Part shown: piece by piece, positions 582 to 12,909 of the stretch
Layout of the letters: each line of letters opens with the position of its first letter
How positions within the stretch are numbered: position 1 is the stretch's first letter
IMG/VR virus record: IMGVR_UViG_3300047317_000131
Location: 1-24,162 of that record
Length of the DNA stretch: 24,162 nucleotides
Strand: one strand, 5' to 3'
Source: a virus
Translations under genes and position numbers: made by a program
The notes under the pieces: generated by a model
The model's input: the letters and a program-made list of their open reading frames with translations, nothing else
Databases searched by the model: none
Told to the model about the DNA's origin: nothing

Positions 582-1646
582 TTAGCGGGGATCATCGTGG
601 TGGACCTCATAATCGTGGGTCACGAAGCCCAGTGAGGTGTCGCCGCGCTGATGCTCACCAATCCAGAGCTTGCGCCCCTGACAGCGCGTGCAGGACAGGT
701 CTTCGGCAAAGATATGCTCGCATAGCGGCGACAGCGGGTTGCGCCAATCCTTGCGCCAGTGACCACGCACCTGATGCGCACGCCTGCGCAGGATCGTCGC
801 CGCCTTCGCGATCAGTTTGCGCCATCGCGTTTCCGGCACGTTGAGATGCACAACGGAGTGCTTCAGGAATTTCTTATAGCTGCCCTTGGAAATGTAGCCG
901 CGACTTGGCTCCACGTTCTCCATGATGACAGGCAGATCATTGATAGTTGCGAACAGCGCCCAGATGTCACGGATCGAAATCTTCGGCTTCAGCAACTCTG
1001 GTCCTGCGGCGCTCGATATCGTTTGCATCATGCCCGCGCTGAACTTTTCGCTGTAGGTGTACGCCCAGCCGCATTGCTTTGAGTTATAGCCCTTCATCAT
1101 CACCAGAAGTTCGGCGTCCGGTTCGTCCTTCCATATCTTCATCGTGCGCCACGGCAGCGGATCATCATCGCTGCGCCAGACCATGCTGACCGGATGCGTC
1201 AACGCAAACCCCGGCTTCATCACGCTGTCGGTGAATTCCGACGTGATGAATGCAGTTTCGATCTGCGGATGCTGCCTGACAAGAAGGCCAACGCGACCCG
1301 GTGGCGCGCTGTCATCGATCTTGCCGATGCGCTTGATCGTCATGCCGTGATGCGCCGTCCGCTGCATGTAGGCGTTATAATCAAGCTCCACCCATGTCAT
1401 CGCGTGCGGCAATCGCGCGAGCCGTCTGGAATTCTCCAGCGCGGTGAGCCGCTGGCGCAGCCCGCCGACCTTCCAGAAATTCTGCGACAGGTCGAACAGG
1501 AATTCGCTCATGCGCTCATCGAGGACGAACTTCCTCGCCTGCGCGACTTGCAGATACAGATTTGCCGCCTCTGGATTTCCAAGCATGCGCTTGGTGTAGA
1601 GGCCAGAGGCGATGCAGGCGTCGGCGAGCGTCGGAGCTTTTTTCAT
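582..1646 (-). CDS. Unknown phage protein with C-terminal Cys/His-rich region
   Basis: The product is a 354-aa soluble protein with no signal peptide or membrane segment. The ATG at 1646 overlaps the HNH gene's stop as ATGA; a TTG two codons upstream is a weaker choice. There is no good Shine-Dalgarno, so translation is probably coupled to the HNH gene. The last ~90 residues are basic: an R/K-rich VRGHWRKDW stretch, then C-x(3)-H-x(7)-C-x(2)-C, then WIGEHQRGDTSLG and a His-rich end. This could bind metal and nucleic acid. I recall similar tails in uncharacterised phage proteins of Rhizobiales but cannot name a family. It is the last gene of the leftward run, downstream of HNH and RuvC-like nucleases, so a DNA-processing role is plausible but unproven. 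Confidence 0.75.
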   Translation of the reverse strand: MKKAPTLADACIASGLYTKRMLGNPEAANLYLQVAQARKFVLDERMSEFLFDLSQNFWKVGGLRQRLTALENSRRLARLPHAMTWVELDYNAYMQRTAHHGMTIKRIGKIDDSAPPGRVGLLVRQHPQIETAFITSEFTDSVMKPGFALTHPVSMVWRSDDDPLPWRTMKIWKDEPDAELLVMMKGYNSKQCGWAYTYSEKFSAGMMQTISSAAGPELLKPKISIRDIWALFATINDLPVIMENVEPSRGYISKGSYKKFLKHSVVHLNVPETRWRKLIAKAATILRRRAHQVRGHWRKDWRNPLSPLCEHIFAEDLSCTRCQGRKLWIGEHQRGDTSLGFVTHDYEVHHDDPR

Positions 1647-2026
1647 TGGCAAAATAGCGATAGCTGTGCAGACGCGGCTTCGGTCGGCGTATCACGCGGC
1701 ATAGGCTGATAGGCTTTCCCGACCCTGCCGTCCCTTAAATCCTGTTTTGTTTTGATCGAGTGGCAATTCGCACAAAGCAGTTGGTAATCATCCTTCCTGC
1801 CGTCGAACAGTATCGCTCTGGCTGATTTGTTCGCCGTATCGTGCCCCCGCGTGGAGCGAAGCACCGGCACCTTATGATCGAATTGAAGAACACGGGTATC
1901 GGTTATCGTGCATCCGTCACCCACGCATCGTCCTCCCATGATTTTGATTGCACGAAGACGCTGGTTGCGGAGATAGCGCGCTTGCGTGTCGCGCTGCTTG
2001 CGAATGTCGATGTACTTCCCGCCCAT
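1643..2026 (-). CDS. HNH endonuclease
   Basis: This 127-aa protein has the layout of a zinc-supported HNH nuclease. Cys34 and Cys39 form the first knuckle, Asp50-His51-Lys52 (QFDHK) is the catalytic part, and Cys85-x2-Cys88-His89 (CANCH) closes the fold. The N-terminus is strongly basic, which suits DNA binding. Such phage HNH proteins nick or cut DNA; many serve packaging beside terminase, others are homing-type nucleases. Here it sits 6 bases downstream of the RuvC-like gene and overlaps the next gene by ATGA, so all three are probably co-translated. No intron or intein borders are visible, which argues against a homing role. The fold call is firm; the biological role is not. Confidence 0.88.
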   Translation of the reverse strand: MGGKYIDIRKQRDTQARYLRNQRLRAIKIMGGRCVGDGCTITDTRVLQFDHKVPVLRSTRGHDTANKSARAILFDGRKDDYQLLCANCHSIKTKQDLRDGRVGKAYQPMPRDTPTEAASAQLSLFCQ

Positions 2027-2032
2027 GATTAC

Positions 2033-2563
2033 TCACTTTGAATTTCGGAACAGCGGCGTTTGCCCGACAGCAACATCAGGCCGCAGATATCCGCACTGAT
2101 AGCTCCACAATGCGCATGCGTCGGCTTCGTCGGTCGTATCGACCATCCAGCCCAGATCGCGGCATTGCTGAACAGTGCGCGGCTTGGCGATGGCGGATTT
2201 CATGTTGCTACCAAGGAAGTGCGCGCGAACTTGCGCCACTGTGGCTTCACGAAGCTCCACGCGATTGTAGCACCACTCCTCCAGATGCTCCGCGAAGCCC
2301 ATCAGCATTTTGATGGTGTTGATGTTCGTCTTGCCGTGCATCACCATCGGCAGTGCAGGACTTTCGAAGACGACCAGATTGGTCTTGTGCGCTGAACAGA
2401 ACAGATCGAGCCAGAGACGGAATTGCCGATACGCGGCAGCGCGCGGCTCTCCGCTCTTCACGAAGCGATGCGTTCCGAACTTCGGCACAGTGCCGGGTTT
2501 CCCGAATGCCCATCCTGTTACGCTGGCGAGGTCAAGCGCCAGCACTGTGCCGGTGAACGCCAT
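2033..2563 (-). CDS. RuvC-like Holliday-junction resolvase (phage type)
   Basis: This 176-aa protein has the RNase H-like core of RuvC resolvases. LALDLASVTGWA carries the first catalytic Asp (D11) on strand 1, VVFESPA carries Glu67, and TTDEADACALW near the C-terminus carries Asp145 and Asp148. Spacing and length fit the phage and bacterial RuvC family. These enzymes cut four-way junctions, resolving recombination or replication intermediates before packaging. The rightward RecE/RecT-type genes would generate such intermediates. The ATG at 2563 lies only 2 bases after the PEP-CTERM gene's stop, so the two are co-transcribed. All four acidic residues are present, so it should be active. Confidence 0.88.
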   Translation of the reverse strand: MAFTGTVLALDLASVTGWAFGKPGTVPKFGTHRFVKSGEPRAAAYRQFRLWLDLFCSAHKTNLVVFESPALPMVMHGKTNINTIKMLMGFAEHLEEWCYNRVELREATVAQVRAHFLGSNMKSAIAKPRTVQQCRDLGWMVDTTDEADACALWSYQCGYLRPDVAVGQTPLFRNSK

Positions 2564-2565
2564 GA

Positions 2566-3231
2566 TCAGGCGAGCCGCAGCGAGAGCGAGCTATCCTGAC
2601 GGCGCTTGCGCATCGCCATGAAGCCCACACCTGCGAAGCCCAGTACCATCATTGCCCACGTCGATGCTTCCGGCACCGCCTGTGCAATCGGCACCACGCC
2701 GACGTCGATGCGATAATGTTCGAACTCAGTCAACGTGCCGTCCTGAACAAGCAACGTCAGGCGGGTCATGATCTCGCCGTCAGTGGCGTGGAACGTGAAG
2801 CCGTTCTGGCTGTGTCCGTTGCCAAGATCACCAAGGTTGAAGGTCTGGAGAGCTTCAGGATTTCCGAACTGGTCAACAGCGCGCACGAATGCGAACAGAT
2901 TGCCGGTGCCAACCACAGAGAACACCTGAGTGGTCGTGCCAAGAACGAACGAATTCAACTGGTCGTGGACTTCGATCTGAAGATTGTTGGTGCCGTTGAT
3001 CTTGATGTCGTTGCCGTTGGACGCGGCATTGAACGTCGAGACGTCGAGCGCCTTGAACTCGACCAGACCCTGATGCTGACCGTTCAGACTTCCAAGCGCG
3101 ACGTCGCCGCTCAAGGAATTGAAGATGACGTTGTCACCAGTGCCGCTCAGTTTGGTTTCAAAGGTGACGGTCGCGCTGGCGGGCGTGGCGAGTGCGGCTA
3201 GCGCGATGACGGATAGTAGAAGTTTTCTCAT
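2566..3231 (-). CDS. PEPxxWA-CTERM exported surface protein
   Basis: The 221-aa product starts with a classic Sec signal, a basic MRK followed by a hydrophobic core and ATPASA (likely cut after residue 20). The mature part (21-180) is rich in Thr, Asn, Gly and Phe, looks all-beta and has no Cys. The C-terminus is a textbook PEPxxWA-CTERM tripartite signal: VPEASTWAMM (186-195), a hydrophobic helix to about 207, then RKRR (208-211) and a short tail. In bacteria this signal is recognised by an exosortase for sorting to the cell surface, typically in biofilm-forming species. The Shine-Dalgarno AGGAG is well placed. It lies between two DNA-metabolism genes and is not a structural virion gene. It would act in the host envelope, perhaps altering the surface or excluding other phages. 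The family assignment is strong; the role is inferred. Confidence 0.9.
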   Translation of the reverse strand: MRKLLLSVIALAALATPASATVTFETKLSGTGDNVIFNSLSGDVALGSLNGQHQGLVEFKALDVSTFNAASNGNDIKINGTNNLQIEVHDQLNSFVLGTTTQVFSVVGTGNLFAFVRAVDQFGNPEALQTFNLGDLGNGHSQNGFTFHATDGEIMTRLTLLVQDGTLTEFEHYRIDVGVVPIAQAVPEASTWAMMVLGFAGVGFMAMRKRRQDSSLSLRLA

Positions 3232-3247
3232 GGGTGGTCTCCTGAAG

Positions 3248-3290
3248 GATGCGGGTGTCGCATCGTTGACCGCAGCGGAATTCTGCGGTC
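3248..3290 (-). promoter_or_regulatory. Two perfect hairpins in the PEP-CTERM gene leader
   Basis: The 68 bases between the 3300 gene's stop and the PEP-CTERM start hold two perfect inverted repeats. One is an 8-bp stem, gaccgcag (3268-3275) with ctgcggtc (3283-3290), with a 7-base loop. The other is a 6-bp stem, gatgcg (3248-3253) with cgcatc (3259-3264), with a 5-base loop, ending a few bases before the Shine-Dalgarno. Neither is followed by a U-run on the leftward transcript, so they are not ordinary intrinsic terminators. They may set translation or mRNA stability of the exported protein apart from its neighbours, or be protein-binding sites. Confidence 0.5.
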
Positions 3291-3299
3291 AGAGTTGCG

Positions 3300-3764
3300 T
3301 CACGCGATCCGAACGAACCGGGCCAACTCAATCGGGCAACTATAGACCTGATATGCGTAACCCTTTTTGGTGTCGTTCACTTGCTGCACGATCCACCGCT
3401 CATGTGTCACACCGTCAACGATAGCCGAATAGCAAAGATCGCGCGAAAGACTGATGTACCAATCGGCTCTCTCCGACGTCTTCGTGGCGCGATCAACGAA
3501 CACCGACCTAAAGGGCCAGTCGTCCTTGCTCGTGAAGGCCACGCCAAGCCCCTTGATTTCAAATCGCTTCCACGGATTGTCTCCACGCCGCGCCTTCAGG
3601 TCTTCCTTATCGCCGTACTGGTCGCGGTCTTCGAAGCGAGGTCGCACCGTTACTTGATTGATTTGGGTTTCGTAGCCCTTGCGCCGCAGATAGTCGGCGA
3701 AGGCATTCACGGCCTTCATTGAAAACGGAACGGCTTTGCGGAAACGCTCCTCTTCTGTCGTCAT
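3300..3764 (-). CDS. Unknown protein, possible PD-(D/E)XK-type nuclease fold
   Basis: The product is 154 aa from the ATG at 3764, which overlaps the preceding stop as ATGA and has GGAG 7 bases upstream; an ATG four codons earlier is possible. The sequence runs alpha (MKAVNAFADYLRRKGY), then beta with an acidic stretch (RPRFEDRDQYGDKEDL, 41-56), then FEIKG (E69-x-K71), then strands ending in ADWYISLSRDLCYSAIV. An acidic residue ahead of E-x-K resembles the PD-(D/E)XK nuclease core, and the setting among nucleases agrees, but the pattern is short and I do not recognise a family. No membrane segment or signal is seen. Calling it hypothetical is safest. Confidence 0.7.
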   Translation of the reverse strand: MTTEEERFRKAVPFSMKAVNAFADYLRRKGYETQINQVTVRPRFEDRDQYGDKEDLKARRGDNPWKRFEIKGLGVAFTSKDDWPFRSVFVDRATKTSERADWYISLSRDLCYSAIVDGVTHERWIVQQVNDTKKGYAYQVYSCPIELARFVRIA

Positions 3765-4102
3765 TTTCCGCTCCATCCCAGCACCAGATACACGTCAGTT
3801 TCTCTGCCGTGGCTCTTGCTGGTCTTCATGTGACGTCGCTTGCCGGTGAACTGGATGCGATTGCGCCTGATCGCCTCCATGACCATCGCGCCCCACGCGT
3901 TGTGATGATGCGGACGCGCCAGCCCCTTCATCAGAAGTCGGATGCGAATGTCCTCTGCGGTGCCGATGAAGCCGGGGATCAACGCGAGCGCGATGATCGC
4001 CCGCTCCTGCCAGTCCCCGCCGTTCTCTGTCACGCGCTGCAACGCGCGGTCGCGCAGTGTCTTGGCGTCGGTGTGATGATCCCCGAACAGATCATCCATC
4101 AT
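3761..4102 (-). CDS. Conserved small phage protein of unknown function
   Basis: This is a 113-aa basic, soluble protein. The ATG at 4102 overlaps the previous stop as ATGA; a second ATG directly follows it. Visible parts are an acidic/His N-terminus (MMDDLFGDHHTD), a helical middle with alternating charges, and a C-terminal stretch with NAWGAMV, TGKRRHMKTSKSHGRETDVY. The last part, many basic residues before a predicted beta strand, resembles a short winged-helix-like nucleic-acid-binding module. I recall similar proteins in alphaproteobacterial phages next to replication genes, without a known function. Confidence 0.7.
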   Translation of the reverse strand: MMDDLFGDHHTDAKTLRDRALQRVTENGGDWQERAIIALALIPGFIGTAEDIRIRLLMKGLARPHHHNAWGAMVMEAIRRNRIQFTGKRRHMKTSKSHGRETDVYLVLGWSGK

Positions 4103-4302
4103 GTGCCTCGCCCTCCGCGCTTACCCGCCTTCAGGTTGACCACCTTGCCGATACCCTTCGCCTTGATCCTGCTCATCGCGTCGAGCTTGACCTTGTTCTC
4201 CTTGACGCGCTGTTCCTTGGCGCTTCGATCCGCCTCTGCTGCACGCGCCTCGCGCATCGCCCTCAACTCAGCTTCGCGTGGTCCCATTTTCTTTTCTGCC
4301 AT
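4099..4302 (-). CDS. Small highly charged basic protein, unknown
   Basis: The product is 67 aa, about a third Lys or Arg. A long predicted helix (residues 5-45, rich in Arg, Glu, Lys and Ala) is followed by a glycine-rich basic tail (KGIGKVVNLKAGKRGGRGT). Start choice is supported by GAGGAG a few bases before the ATG. The composition suggests binding to nucleic acid or to an acidic partner. No family is recognised. It overlaps the next gene by ATGA, so they are coupled. The 63-base gap before it (4303-4365) contains its ribosome site and nothing else obvious. Confidence 0.65.
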   Translation of the reverse strand: MAEKKMGPREAELRAMREARAAEADRSAKEQRVKENKVKLDAMSRIKAKGIGKVVNLKAGKRGGRGT

Positions 4303-4365
4303 TGCTTGCTCCTCTTGGTTTCGCAGGGTGCTGAAAAATTCCCGCGTCGTCTGAATGCCTCGCCG

Positions 4366-4578
4366 TCAGTTCATCGCCAGATAATAATCCACCAGCGGAT
4401 GCGGTCCATAATAGTCGGTCATGTCCTGCGCCATCTCGCGCGTCAGCAGCAGACCTTTGTCGTAGCCCTTGAAATACAGCACGATGCGCGGCGCGCCGCC
4501 GACCTTCTCCATCTCAACGGCGGTAATCTCGACCAGCATCGGGTCGCTGATATCTTCGGGCTTCAGGTAGCTCGCCAT
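4366..4578 (-). CDS. Small acidic hypothetical protein
   Basis: The product is 70 aa from the ATG at 4578, chosen because AGGAG lies 8 bases upstream; an ATG eight codons earlier has no such site. The sequence MASYLKPEDI...MLVEITAVEMEKVGGAPRIVLYFKGYDKGLLLTREMAQDM reads as a small beta-rich fold followed by a helix and a Tyr-rich end. A similar 'peptide binds/limits expression of a metabolite' pattern is not evident and I recognise no firm family. Its 5' end overlaps the preceding gene by 65 bases in another frame, longer than the usual 4-base overlaps here. One of the two gene ends may therefore be misjudged. Confidence 0.65.
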   Translation of the reverse strand: MASYLKPEDISDPMLVEITAVEMEKVGGAPRIVLYFKGYDKGLLLTREMAQDMTDYYGPHPLVDYYLAMN

Positions 4579-8626: not shown

Positions 8627-8782
8627 AAGTAAAGGCGAGCTTGCCGTCACCGGGCAAATCACCGTACACTTGGGAGGTTGAGCAATCACCGGCACGGGTC
8701 GCCGCTGGTGATCGTTCAGGGCGCGGGCATCCGGTTTCAAGTACCCGCGCCCATCAACCTTCCCCATGCGGAGCAAGCAAAA
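8627..8782 (+). promoter_or_regulatory. Leader of the recombination operon with strong hairpin
   Basis: This 156-base gap carries motif copy C and a perfect 9-bp inverted repeat, gggcgcggg (8719-8727) with cccgcgccc (8744-8752), with a 16-base loop and no U-run after it. A GGGAGG (8672-8677) abuts a TTG and is too close to act as its ribosome site. The stretch therefore looks like an operator or an RNA-level control leader rather than an extended N-terminus. No clear -10 box is visible. Confidence 0.5.
8629..8643 (+). promoter_or_regulatory. Repeated control motif, copy C
   Basis: GTAAAGGCGAGCTTG starts 2 bases after the stop of the 423-aa gene and 154 bases before the RecE-like start. As with copy B, a small stem-loop follows at once (ttgcc with ggcaa). 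Its recurrence upstream of a second early operon supports a shared regulatory function. Confidence 0.45.
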
Positions 8783-9724
8783 ATGAATGTCACGAAGTGG
8801 AACGGCAAGCGCATCACGAAGCCGGGCTGGTACTCAGGCATCCCCATCGAACGCTATCACAGCGCGGGCATGTGCGATGGCCCGGCAGTGTCGTCCTCCG
8901 ATCTGCGGGCGTGCTGGATCAAGTCGCCTGCGCATATGTACGCGCGATGGGCAGAGAACCCTGAACGCGAAGAGCGCGCACCGTCGCGCAACATGATCTT
9001 GGGATCGGCGGCGCATCATCTGTTCCTTGGTGAGGACGGATACAATCTGAAATTCATTCAGCAGAAGCTGACCTATCGCGACAAGGTCACGGCGGAAGAC
9101 AAGCCGTGGAACAACAATGCTGGCGTCTGCAAGGCGTGGAACGAAGCGCAGACCAAGCTGGGACTGACCATCGTAAAGCCGGAAGAGTTCAAGGCCATCG
9201 TGAAGATGTCGGAAAGCCTCGCGGTCGATCCGATGGTGCAGAACGGCATCCTGAATGGTCGCGTGGAGTGTTCTGGATTTTTCAAGCACCGCCCCACTGG
9301 CCTGTGGATCAAGGTGCGACCGGACGTGATCCCGATTGGCAGCGGTGACTATGTGGACCTGAAGACTGCCGCCGACGTGACGACCGTGGCGCTGCAATCA
9401 TCGATCAGATCATACGGCTACCACATGCAGGGCGCACTGGTGATGGAAGCCGCTGCGGACCTGTCGCCGGAAATTCAATCGAAGCAATTCGTCTTGCTCT
9501 TCATTGAGACGGCGAACCCGTACTGCGCACGCGCCGTACCGCTGGAGGAGAAAGACCTTGTGCGCGGCATCGATCAGAACGCGGCGATGCTGAAGTGGAT
9601 CGCGGAGTGCATCGAAACCAAACGCTGGCCGGGACCGGGCGGCGAGGACGACCTTCGCCCGCTTGGTCTCTCCAACGACGAACGCTCCCGCATTGACGAA
9701 CGTCTGAAGAGAGGAGGGCGGTGA
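8783..9724 (+). CDS. RecE-like PD-(D/E)XK exonuclease (exodeoxyribonuclease VIII type)
   Basis: The product is 313 aa from the ATG at 8783, with GGAG 9 bases upstream; a TTG at 8678 would extend it through the hairpin leader. Motifs of the RecE/lambda-exonuclease fold appear in order: GSAAHHLFL (74-82), RPDVIP with Asp181, YVDLKTAADV with Asp192-x-Lys194 (the D-x-K pair), and YGYHMQGALV (211-220), a helix with the conserved Tyr and Gln. It would degrade one strand of DNA ends to give single-stranded tails. RecT, two genes downstream, anneals such tails, so this is a two-component recombination system. All key residues are present. It overlaps the XRE gene by one base (TGATG). Confidence 0.88.
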   Translation: MNVTKWNGKRITKPGWYSGIPIERYHSAGMCDGPAVSSSDLRACWIKSPAHMYARWAENPEREERAPSRNMILGSAAHHLFLGEDGYNLKFIQQKLTYRDKVTAEDKPWNNNAGVCKAWNEAQTKLGLTIVKPEEFKAIVKMSESLAVDPMVQNGILNGRVECSGFFKHRPTGLWIKVRPDVIPIGSGDYVDLKTAADVTTVALQSSIRSYGYHMQGALVMEAAADLSPEIQSKQFVLLFIETANPYCARAVPLEEKDLVRGIDQNAAMLKWIAECIETKRWPGPGGEDDLRPLGLSNDERSRIDERLKRGGR

Positions 9725-10107
9725 TGGTCAAGCCCAAGGTCACGGAGTTCGACCAGTACGTCGGCGAGCGCATTCGTGAAGCGCGGCTGGATATCAAGAT
9801 GTCGCAGAAAGATTTGGGCGATCTGTTGGGCGTCTCGTTTCAGCAAGTGCAGAAGTATGAGACCGGAGCCAACCGCGTCAGCGGTGCGCGGTTCGAATTG
9901 CTGGTGACAGCACTGCGCCGACCGTTGACATACTTTTTCCCGAACGGCACCGACGTCCGCGCGACTGTCGATCCGATCATGAGCCAATTCATTTCCAGCA
10001 AGCGCGGTCTGGAGATGGCGAAGAAATTTCCCCGCCTTGGTCCCGGCGCGCAGGGCGTGGTGATGCGCGTGGTCGATGAATTCTTATCAAAGGAACATGC
10101 ACAATGA
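9724..10107 (+). CDS. XRE-family transcriptional regulator
   Basis: The product is 127 aa with a standard XRE/Cro-CI helix-turn-helix near the N-terminus: IREARLDIKMSQKDLGDLLGVSFQQVQKYETGANRVSGARFELLVTAL. SQKDLGDLLGVSFQQVQKYE holds the two helices, and LTYFF marks the usual end of the domain. The C-terminal third is helical and may dimerise. Starts at 9721 (GTG) or 9724 (ATG) are possible; ATG is favoured, with GAGGAGG upstream. It lies between the nuclease and recT in one operon, overlapping one by 1 base and the other by 4, so it is made with them. It could autoregulate the recombination operon, perhaps at the 8627-8782 leader; that is inference. Confidence 0.87.
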   Translation: MVKPKVTEFDQYVGERIREARLDIKMSQKDLGDLLGVSFQQVQKYETGANRVSGARFELLVTALRRPLTYFFPNGTDVRATVDPIMSQFISSKRGLEMAKKFPRLGPGAQGVVMRVVDEFLSKEHAQ

Positions 10108-11141
10108 TTGATGTGAGCGAAATCGAAAAGCGAGTTGATCGCGCGGTGACTGCCGCGATCCCCATGAACGTCAGCATGGGCGGCGTCCAGCTTGCGAGCT
10201 ATGTCCAGATGATGGAGTTGGCGAAGACGATGGCGACGTGCCGCGCCGCGATCCCCGCGTGGCTTCGTGCATCAGTCGGTGACTGTCTGTCGATCTGGCA
10301 GCGCGCCGCACGATGGGGACTTGATCCGTATTTCGTCGCGGAGAAGTCCTACATGATGACCAACCGGCAGACCGGCGAGACGAAGATCGCCTTCGAAAGC
10401 CAGTTGATCCACGCCGTCATCGAAAGCCTTGCGCCGCTGAAGGGCAGACTACGCCACAAGATCGTGGGCACGGGCGATGAACGCTATTGCGAGGTGTGGG
10501 GCACGTTCAAGGGCGAGGACGCGCCGCACATTTTCAAAAGCGAGACGCTGGGCAAGCGCGTGAAGGATATCGGCAAGAGCGAGAAGGGGTATTTCCGTGG
10601 GTCGCCGCTGTGGCTCCAGAAGCCCGAAGTCCAGTTGTTCTACGATGCGTCACGCGATTGGGCGCGCATCAATTGCCCCGACGTTCTCGCTGGCGTGTAC
10701 ACGCGCGACGAACTGACCGACCACGATCCAGTGGACGTGACACCATCGCCAGCACCCTCGACGCTGGCAGAGAGATTGCGTGCGGCGAAAGACCAGCACG
10801 CAGGAGACCGTGGCTTCGATGCCGACCACATCAAGAATGAGGTGGCGAAGAACGGAAGCACGGTGATAGACGGCAGCGCCAATTCCGACGCGGCCAATGA
10901 GGAGACGGGTAATGAGCCTGACAATGAGCGTGACATGGACCAACGGGTCGGCGGCGGTTCAGATCGAGGCGGGGACGCTGACGACCAAGGCGGAAGTGAA
11001 GGCGTTGACGCTGGAACTCCGCAAGGTGGAGAAGCTGTTGCCGGATCGCCTGAAGCGGACGGCGAAGAGAGCGACCAAGTCGAAATCTTCCCGCCCGACC
11101 GCAAGCAGCCCGCGCCGCAAAGCAAAAAGCGCAAGCGCTGA
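10104..11141 (+). CDS. recT: RecT-family single-strand annealing protein
   Basis: The product is 345 aa. Residues 1-215 match the RecT/Bet-type annealase core, with MMELAKTMATCRAAIPAWLRASVGDCLSIWQRAARWGLDPYFVAEKSYMM, then KIAFESQLIHAVIES, and WLQKPEVQLFYDASRDWARINCPDVLAGVYT. RecT pairs complementary single strands, using tails made by the RecE-like protein upstream. From about residue 230 the protein becomes low-complexity, acidic and Gly-rich (DQRVGGGSDRGGDADDQGG), then ends in a basic KKRKR. This tail is far longer than usual and coincides with an overlapping gene at 10912-11172 whose frame fits the local codon bias better. It starts by ATGA overlap with the XRE gene. The core call is strong; the tail is probably dispensable. 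Confidence 0.9.
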   Translation: MIDVSEIEKRVDRAVTAAIPMNVSMGGVQLASYVQMMELAKTMATCRAAIPAWLRASVGDCLSIWQRAARWGLDPYFVAEKSYMMTNRQTGETKIAFESQLIHAVIESLAPLKGRLRHKIVGTGDERYCEVWGTFKGEDAPHIFKSETLGKRVKDIGKSEKGYFRGSPLWLQKPEVQLFYDASRDWARINCPDVLAGVYTRDELTDHDPVDVTPSPAPSTLAERLRAAKDQHAGDRGFDADHIKNEVAKNGSTVIDGSANSDAANEETGNEPDNERDMDQRVGGGSDRGGDADDQGGSEGVDAGTPQGGEAVAGSPEADGEESDQVEIFPPDRKQPAPQSKKRKR

Positions 11142-12271: not shown

Positions 12272-12490
12272 ATGAGCGACCGGCCAACCCACATTGTCGA
12301 ATTCGATGAAGCCGAATTGATCTGTCGGATGGTCGAGGCGTTCGCTGAAACGGAGCGCCCTGCCGGTTTGACGGCAGGGCAGGCCGTCGATGCTATGCCG
12401 CCGTTTGAAAGACGATGCTGGATGAGAGTGTCGGAAGCCATCAAGGACTACTGGGACGAAACCATTTTCGACATGAAGCGAATTCAATGA
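12272..12490 (+). CDS. Small acidic hypothetical protein
   Basis: The product is 72 aa, acidic, mostly helical (EAELICRMVEAFAETERP, QAVDAMPPFERRCWMRVSEAIKDYWDETIF). GGAGG lies before the start, one base after the preceding stop. No family is recognised. The Glu/Asp-rich surface might mimic DNA or bind a basic partner, but this is speculative. It overlaps the next gene by ATGA. Confidence 0.68.
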   Translation: MSDRPTHIVEFDEAELICRMVEAFAETERPAGLTAGQAVDAMPPFERRCWMRVSEAIKDYWDETIFDMKRIQ

Positions 12491-12909
12491 TGATCAGCCG
12501 CCGCCTTGTTCTCGCGATGATCGCGGTCGCCACCACCCCGCCGCTGATCGCGTGGGCGTTCAGGTCTGAACCACCGAAGCCACCGCGCCCGCAGCCGACG
12601 CTGTCCGACCGGCTGAACGAAGTCGATGCCGATCTCCCCGCCGCCAAGAAGGAAGATCGCCTGCCCGAAGCCCGCGCGGTCAGAACGATCCCGATCACCC
12701 AGCCAGAGCCAGCGGCAGCGATTGGCGCGGCAGCGTCCGAACGTCTCCGCGCTGTCGTCCTGACGCCACCGCCTGAAGCTGACGAGCCGCCGCAACGCCG
12801 CGCAAAACCGCATCGGCGTGCGGCGTTGCGGGGCGACGTCTGTTCGCGTCACAACATGCGGAAGGTGACGACGCGCGGCGGCAAATCGTGGCGCTGCCGT
12901 CGCCGCTGA
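12487..12909 (+). CDS. Membrane-anchored or exported Pro-rich protein
   Basis: The product is 140 aa from the ATG at 12487, which overlaps the previous stop as ATGA; the longer frame from 12415 lies in the neighbouring gene. The N-terminus MMISRRLVLAMIAVATTPPLIAWAF is a signal anchor or signal peptide. A Pro/Arg/Glu-rich stretch of about 80 residues follows. The C-terminus is a small basic module, GDVCSRHNMRKVTTRGGKSWRCRRR, with two Cys that could pair. I recall this D-x-C-x-R-H-x-M-R-K-V ending in short exported phage and host proteins of Rhizobiales. Likely periplasmic or inner-membrane facing, with unknown role. Confidence 0.72.
   Translation: MMISRRLVLAMIAVATTPPLIAWAFRSEPPKPPRPQPTLSDRLNEVDADLPAAKKEDRLPEARAVRTIPITQPEPAAAIGAAASERLRAVVLTPPPEADEPPQRRAKPHRRAALRGDVCSRHNMRKVTTRGGKSWRCRRR

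Follow-up and report, generated by a model that had tools for sequence, protein, structure and literature searches.

Why would a phage encode a protein that carries the sorting signal of a bacterial exosortase substrate? The question is raised by a 221-amino acid protein that is encoded, from an ATG start codon, at positions 2566..3231 on the minus strand of a 24,162-base IMG/VR virus record. The whole of this stretch of DNA was analysed and is here termed the window, while other loci are referred to by L numbers. Phages remodel the surfaces of their hosts with lipoproteins and glycosyltransferases. PEP-CTERM proteins are exported through the Sec pathway and subsequently processed by an exosortase (EpsH) (PMC1569441), and those of bacterial hosts contribute to the formation of flocs (PMC9850573).

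Sorting signals of the phage-encoded protein

The N-terminus of the protein, MRKLLLSVIALAALATPASA followed by T, can be read directly as a Sec-type signal peptide with an AxA site (residues 1-20; 3172..3231, minus strand). AF2 predicts a helix over residues 2-13, a signal peptide much like it occurs in phages with unrelated ectodomains, and N-terminal Sec signals were also found in a heuristic scan of the relatives. The ectodomain (residues 21-184; 2680..3171, minus strand) is followed by the PEP-CTERM tag region (2569..2679, minus strand), comprising the motif VPEASTWAMM (residues 186-195; 2647-2676), a hydrophobic helix (AF2 helix 189-212) and the basic cluster RKRR (residues 208-211). The PEP-like motif, transmembrane helix and basic cluster are thus placed as in exosortase substrates, within approximately 25-40 amino acids of the C-terminus. 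The protein scores above the cut-offs of the Pfam PEP-CTERM model (23.8 bits; gathering threshold 20.7) and TIGR02595 (18.4; cut-off 16), while its score against the NCBIfam PEPxxWA model (29.4) falls under the curated cut-off of 35, a shortfall that PEA in place of PEP in the phage tag would plausibly explain. The preliminary description of this locus, which reported a Sec signal together with a complete sorting signal, is borne out by these results.

The same description had called for a search of phage genomes for PEP-CTERM signals. A degenerate DNA pattern for VPE[AP]xxxWAMM matched 104 stretches in viral contigs and, among the matches listed, 83 out of 83 (80 loci) lie within 45 amino acids of a C-terminus, ruling out a chance occurrence of the motif. 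An N-terminal signal-like segment is also present in 69 of these 83 listed matches. The presence of a PEP-CTERM protein in the phage contig is confirmed.

Phage context of the gene

The stop codon of the PEP-CTERM gene is separated by two nucleotides from the start of a gene coding for a RuvC-like Holliday junction resolvase (2033..2563, minus strand; phrog_159, E 5e-11), exactly as the preliminary description had it. An HNH endonuclease gene (1643..2026, minus strand; phrog_4234, E 2e-9) is next in the same gene string. On the other side lies a phage gene coding for a 158-amino acid protein with no assigned function (3300..3776, minus strand; 49% identity to its counterpart in L008), while an ExoVIII-like exonuclease and a RecT-like annealase form a phage recombination module at 8678..11141 on the plus strand. 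An endolysin, tail fibres and three baseplate proteins are also encoded in the window. Further downstream in the string of the PEP-CTERM gene, positions 582-1652 code for a 356-amino acid phage protein without a family match, 45% identical to that encoded at L006:1702-2817. Another signal-peptide-like protein, ending in GGKSWRCRRR, is encoded at positions 12415-12909 and has relatives in L003 and L011.

The position beside the RuvC-like gene is conserved in at least six related contigs, among them the window-type phages L003-L006, L008 and L159. Elsewhere, the PEP-CTERM gene is located near an endolysin gene (L007, L009 and L011) or between the DNA polymerase and PurZ genes (L013 and L015). 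The PurZ-like 2-aminoadenylosuccinate synthetases of the latter two phages (L013:9964-11016 and L015:9550-10605), encoded near the DNA polymerase, suggest that these phages may have 2-aminoadenine (Z) DNA.

Twelve full-length relatives of the protein were retrieved from viral contigs. With an HMM restricted to the body of the protein (residues 21-184), approximately 22 distinct viral contigs were matched at E<1e-50; the top-scoring proteins from chromosomes had E values of only about 2e-4 to 7e-3. The chromosomal matches, in Bradyrhizobium, Nitrobacter and sphingomonads, are mostly based on the tag, and relatives on plasmids were found at the level of the tag only. Searches of cultured phages recovered no relatives of the protein, nor any for the four ectodomain types searched, and PHROGs holds no convincing family for the ectodomain; the phages bearing the gene are uncultured and of soil type. 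An alternative C-terminal tag, VPGPIxGA(G/L)xPG...RRR, is found on phage proteins of L012 (1434-2105 and a second ORF) and L226 (6389-7156), and in L012 it is attached to a window-type body. This tail, which is recognised neither by Pfam (L012, L226) nor by NCBIfam (L012), is perhaps another sorting signal.

Host chromosomes are where PEP-CTERM genes are typically found, and a host gene might have reached the viral contig through a binning or assembly error. This is exceedingly improbable, as baseplate, tail fibre, endolysin, ExoVIII, RecT and RuvC genes share the contig, the identical locus recurs in independent samples, and the synteny and the ectodomain family are those of phages; the explanation was rejected. 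Host-like codon use combined with absence from related phages would have counted against the preliminary assignment of the gene to the phage. Related phages do carry it, and its GC3 (0.725) falls among those of its neighbours (0.60-0.80). Host contamination and a stray acquisition of the gene can both be dismissed.

Predicted fold of the ectodomain

An AF2 model computed with 11 sequences has an all-beta body between terminal helices, with block pLDDT values of 82-94 for residues 21-180. The best PDB matches are to FlaA1, followed by carbohydrate-binding modules of the CBM29, CBM6 and CBM16 types, and are weak (E 3e-5 to 1e-2, TM 0.3-0.4), as is the fold match by TM score (0.30/0.42, E 8e-4). 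The prediction is read as a jelly-roll-like sandwich that would allow glycan binding, and as no more than that.

Exchange of the gene and its ectodomain

The window and its closest phage, L008, share 91%, 92% and 91% identity in RuvC, ExoVIII and RecT, respectively, while their PEP-CTERM proteins are merely 49-53% identical. Between the window and the distant phage L003 the corresponding values are 65%, 58% and 49%, and the PEP-CTERM proteins are 85% identical. By these comparisons, the gene is moving independently of the genome in which it resides. L013 and L015 are colinear and 79-89% identical across the primase, polymerase, PurZ and one more gene (the next gene shares 56%), and their ectodomains are unrelated. 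The leader and signal peptide of L159 are as in L003, L006 and L008 (83-92% at the DNA level), as is the RuvC side, while its ectodomain is unrelated to theirs. In L006, an L005-like body is joined to an L011-like tag (92% tag identity). At least five unrelated ectodomains are found behind one leader and signal platform. Within a body type, dN/dS values of about 0.09-0.18 (0.13 for the window and L003) indicate purifying selection.

On the sequence evidence, the leader, signal peptide and tag form a constant platform, on which the ectodomain varies and is exchanged. Neither this exchange nor the structured leader described below figured in the preliminary description. The exchange of ectodomains probably proceeded by recombination through the conserved ends, in which the phages' own RecT and ExoVIII plausibly helped.

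A structured RNA leader

Immediately 5' of the start codon lies a leader of approximately 82 nt (3232..3313, minus strand), identified as a structured RNA by covariation in sets of 17 and 35 sequences. Two hairpins are drawn from this covariation, P2 (TGACCGCAG/CTGCGGTCA; 3291-3283 with 3275-3267) and P3 (GATGC/GCATC; 3264-3260 with 3252-3248), both on the minus strand. Among the 17 leaders, pairs of P2 and P3 are kept in 95.6% of cases, and shuffles keep 78.2%; the double-change cells number 39 against 11.9, and a control in which the partner was slid gave at most 50%. In the 35 sequences, 96.2% of the pairs are kept, with 100 such cells against 30.3. An alternative outer helix, P1 (GTGaCGCA/TGCGaCAC; 3303-3296 with 3262-3255, minus strand), competes for the 5' strand of P3, and as this strand is common to both, P1 and P3 are mutually exclusive. 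The excess for P1 is weaker than that for P2 and P3, at 81.7% of pairs kept against 73.4% in the control and 17 cells against 5.0 in the 17 leaders, and 81.9% kept with 16 cells against 5.3 in the 35 sequences. Where the central strand changes from GGTGC to GGTTC (L158) or GGTAC (L172), both partner strands change accordingly. A Shine-Dalgarno sequence, AGGAG (3243-3239, minus strand), is situated within the leader, and the folded leader probably tunes translation of the phage mRNA.

A covariance model scores the window leader, itself a training sequence of the model, at 57.9 bits (E 6.8e-13). No Rfam family matched at the gathering threshold in 11 phage or viral loci, and the sole match with E<1 at window positions 2000-4500 is an unrelated miRNA model lying off the leader, so that a known RNA was rejected; the covarying leader is a candidate new structured RNA. 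The leader was likewise rejected as an intrinsic terminator, given that no site with a G+C hairpin and T run was called on the minus strand between 3232 and 3313.

In approximately 1 Mb of viral loci the covariance model has confident matches at PEP-CTERM genes only, whereas in approximately 1.2 Mb of further loci, mostly chromosomal PEP-CTERM regions, it has no confident match and one at E 0.49. IMG/VR was also scanned with a 17-nt core of the leader, GCGGTGCATTCCGCACC. The association between leader and gene is not circular, because this core was picked irrespective of the protein. The scan yielded 22 stretches, all of which except L221 and L227 match the model, and each readable downstream gene codes for a signal peptide and PEP-CTERM tag or, in one case, the VPGP tail (L226); that of L219, which comes from the same phage as L220, is cut by the end of the locus. 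The downstream genes start -4 to +8 nt from the leader match. A second pattern, GATGCGACAC-CGCATC, yielded 31 stretches, with model matches only at those already known. Once matches of the same palindrome on the opposite strand are set aside, whole records have one copy of the leader each, with L220 and L229 as exceptions; none was found in those of the body-family phages L007, L009 and L012. L220 contains two leader and PEP-CTERM gene units in tandem, approximately 2 kb apart, with different ectodomains. A different, similar-looking leader pair (TTCGACC..GCAATC..GCGG..GCGAAAG.ACGGAGG), which has no Rfam match at gathering, occurs 5' of the PEP-CTERM genes of L096 and L163, in another viral contig group.

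The leader is also found in eight of 243 genomes of the genus Bradyrhizobium. Six of these copies (L263, L264, L265, L270, L271 and L273) precede a gene for a small secreted protein of the DUF4440/SnoaL type, that of L272 precedes another secreted protein and that of L269 an apparently phage-like gene of 380 amino acids. None of 250 Sphingomonadaceae genomes yielded the leader, in a search run without a positive control. This distribution points to Bradyrhizobium-like hosts, though not conclusively.

Host exosortase and phage lifestyle

None of 30 phage records encodes an exosortase, so that a phage-borne enzyme was rejected, while one or two are encoded in all 13 alphaproteobacterial genomes that carry related PEP-CTERM genes. 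As these candidate-type hosts have the enzyme and the phage records do not, the dependence on a host exosortase, proposed in the preliminary description, is supported. The preliminary reading thus finds support in part, for the phage origin of the gene and this dependence, whereas placement on the host surface and an influence on adsorption, superinfection or biofilm stay proposals. A tyrosine integrase was found in two of 27 records, a serine recombinase in none and a terminase match in 11, although these records may be fragments. Since 25 records have no tyrosine integrase and all 27 have no serine recombinase, the gene is unlikely to serve in lysogenic conversion alone; a prophage setting is disfavoured, although with fragmentary records a lytic cycle is not proven.

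Proposed function and alternative explanations

The gene is most likely a host-surface display cassette, the probable effect of which is on adsorption or superinfection, through the binding of other phages or neighbours to the infected cell. Its mRNA would be translated under the tuning of the folded leader and the protein exported via Sec, with the C-terminal PEP-CTERM helix retained in the inner membrane. Cleavage by the host exosortase at the PEP-like motif would then pass the beta-sandwich ectodomain to the cell surface or the exopolysaccharide. Other phages may adsorb more poorly to the surface thus altered; alternatively, progeny may not be lost on debris and infected cells. Either use would resemble that of the T5 Llp lipoprotein, reached by a different sorting route. 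We consider it an even call that the phage makes the protein as a substrate for the host exosortase and thereby alters the infected cell surface to either of these ends. The proposed role in adsorption or superinfection draws on the exchangeability of the ectodomain, its restriction to phages and the analogy with phage surface-exclusion proteins; the exchange of ectodomains would also fit roles in exopolysaccharide binding or immune evasion. A more elaborate version, in which a switch-like leader with two exclusive helices, a constant signal, a swappable ectodomain and the tag form a dedicated cassette delivered by the host exosortase, and in which phages infecting the same cell exclude one another with a specificity determined by the type of ectodomain, is put forward tentatively.

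Several other explanations were weighed, among which exopolysaccharide binding ranks first, followed by exosortase saturation, a neutral passenger and a role in lysis. The surface protein might bind host exopolysaccharide and change the aggregation or biofilm of infected cells, aiding persistence or spread of the phage. Host PEP-CTERM proteins are tied to exopolysaccharide and floc formation (PMC1569441, PMC9850573), and carbohydrate-binding modules are the top fold matches after FlaA1, but the fold match is weak and the rapid swapping of unrelated ectodomains at one locus better suits an antagonistic target than a constant task, which leaves this explanation rather doubtful. That the exosortase is flooded with substrate, leaving host surface proteins including receptors undisplayed, would account for the constancy of the tag and signal and for phages that carry a substrate but no enzyme. 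A pure competitor would, however, need no folded, diversified ectodomain under purifying selection, and we regard such saturation as improbable.

The chromosomes of Bradyrhizobium-family genomes encode distant homologues that bear the same tag, which might suggest that the gene is a neutral passenger (moron), captured from a host without benefit to the phage. Its conserved position, long phage-only divergence, dN/dS of approximately 0.1-0.2 and own conserved leader make this very unlikely. Least credible of the four is a membrane-anchored envelope or lysis accessory: while an endolysin gene is near the PEP-CTERM gene in L007, L009 and L011, it is RuvC that adjoins it in the window and relatives and DNA polymerase and PurZ that flank it in L013 and L015, and a cleavable surface-sorting tag is no spanin design.

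Relation to known systems and significance

As in the host PEP-CTERM/exosortase system, the phage protein has an N-terminal signal, PEP-like motif, hydrophobic helix and basic end, with a PF07589 match. Host PEP-CTERM genes form single-gene operons with a sigma-54 site upstream (Haft et al. 2006, PMC1569441), whereas the phage gene, with no exosortase of its own, stands in a phage gene string and is preceded by a structured RNA leader. The sigma-54 consensus is not enriched upstream in the phage set, nor in the chromosomal PEP-CTERM sets examined. Chromosomal proteins of Bradyrhizobium and Nitrobacter (e.g. L034, L189-L192) share the style of the tag and a remote similarity in the ectodomain, but are set apart by the body HMM and the leader search described above.

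T5 Llp, an outer-membrane lipoprotein, and phi80 Cor, a small envelope protein, act in phage surface exclusion. Like the protein described here, they are small, phage-made and exported, and are proposed to alter how accessible receptors are on infected cells; neither has an exosortase tag, and the relation is no more than an analogy. A survey of the genes acquired by hot-spring viruses lists PEP-CTERM-like (TIGR03118) proteins as one category of horizontal transfer (n = 13), likewise placing an exosortase-type tag in viral contigs, and the passage on this category makes no mention of a phage family, of exchange, of a leader or of a role in surface display (PMC11003980). A phage exosortase substrate is not described in the open-access literature searched, in agreement with the preliminary description, which was aware of no such protein.

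Surface modification by way of exosortase sorting would represent a known kind of phage activity achieved by a new route. Exosortase-tagged phage proteins constitute a widespread class, found in dozens of contigs and actively exchanged, and the RNA type of their leader also occurs in Bradyrhizobium chromosomes. Whether phages exploit exosortase sorting, the purpose of which is obscure in many bacteria, and whether the exclusion of one phage by another in soil bacteria is governed by the variable ectodomains, can now be tested.
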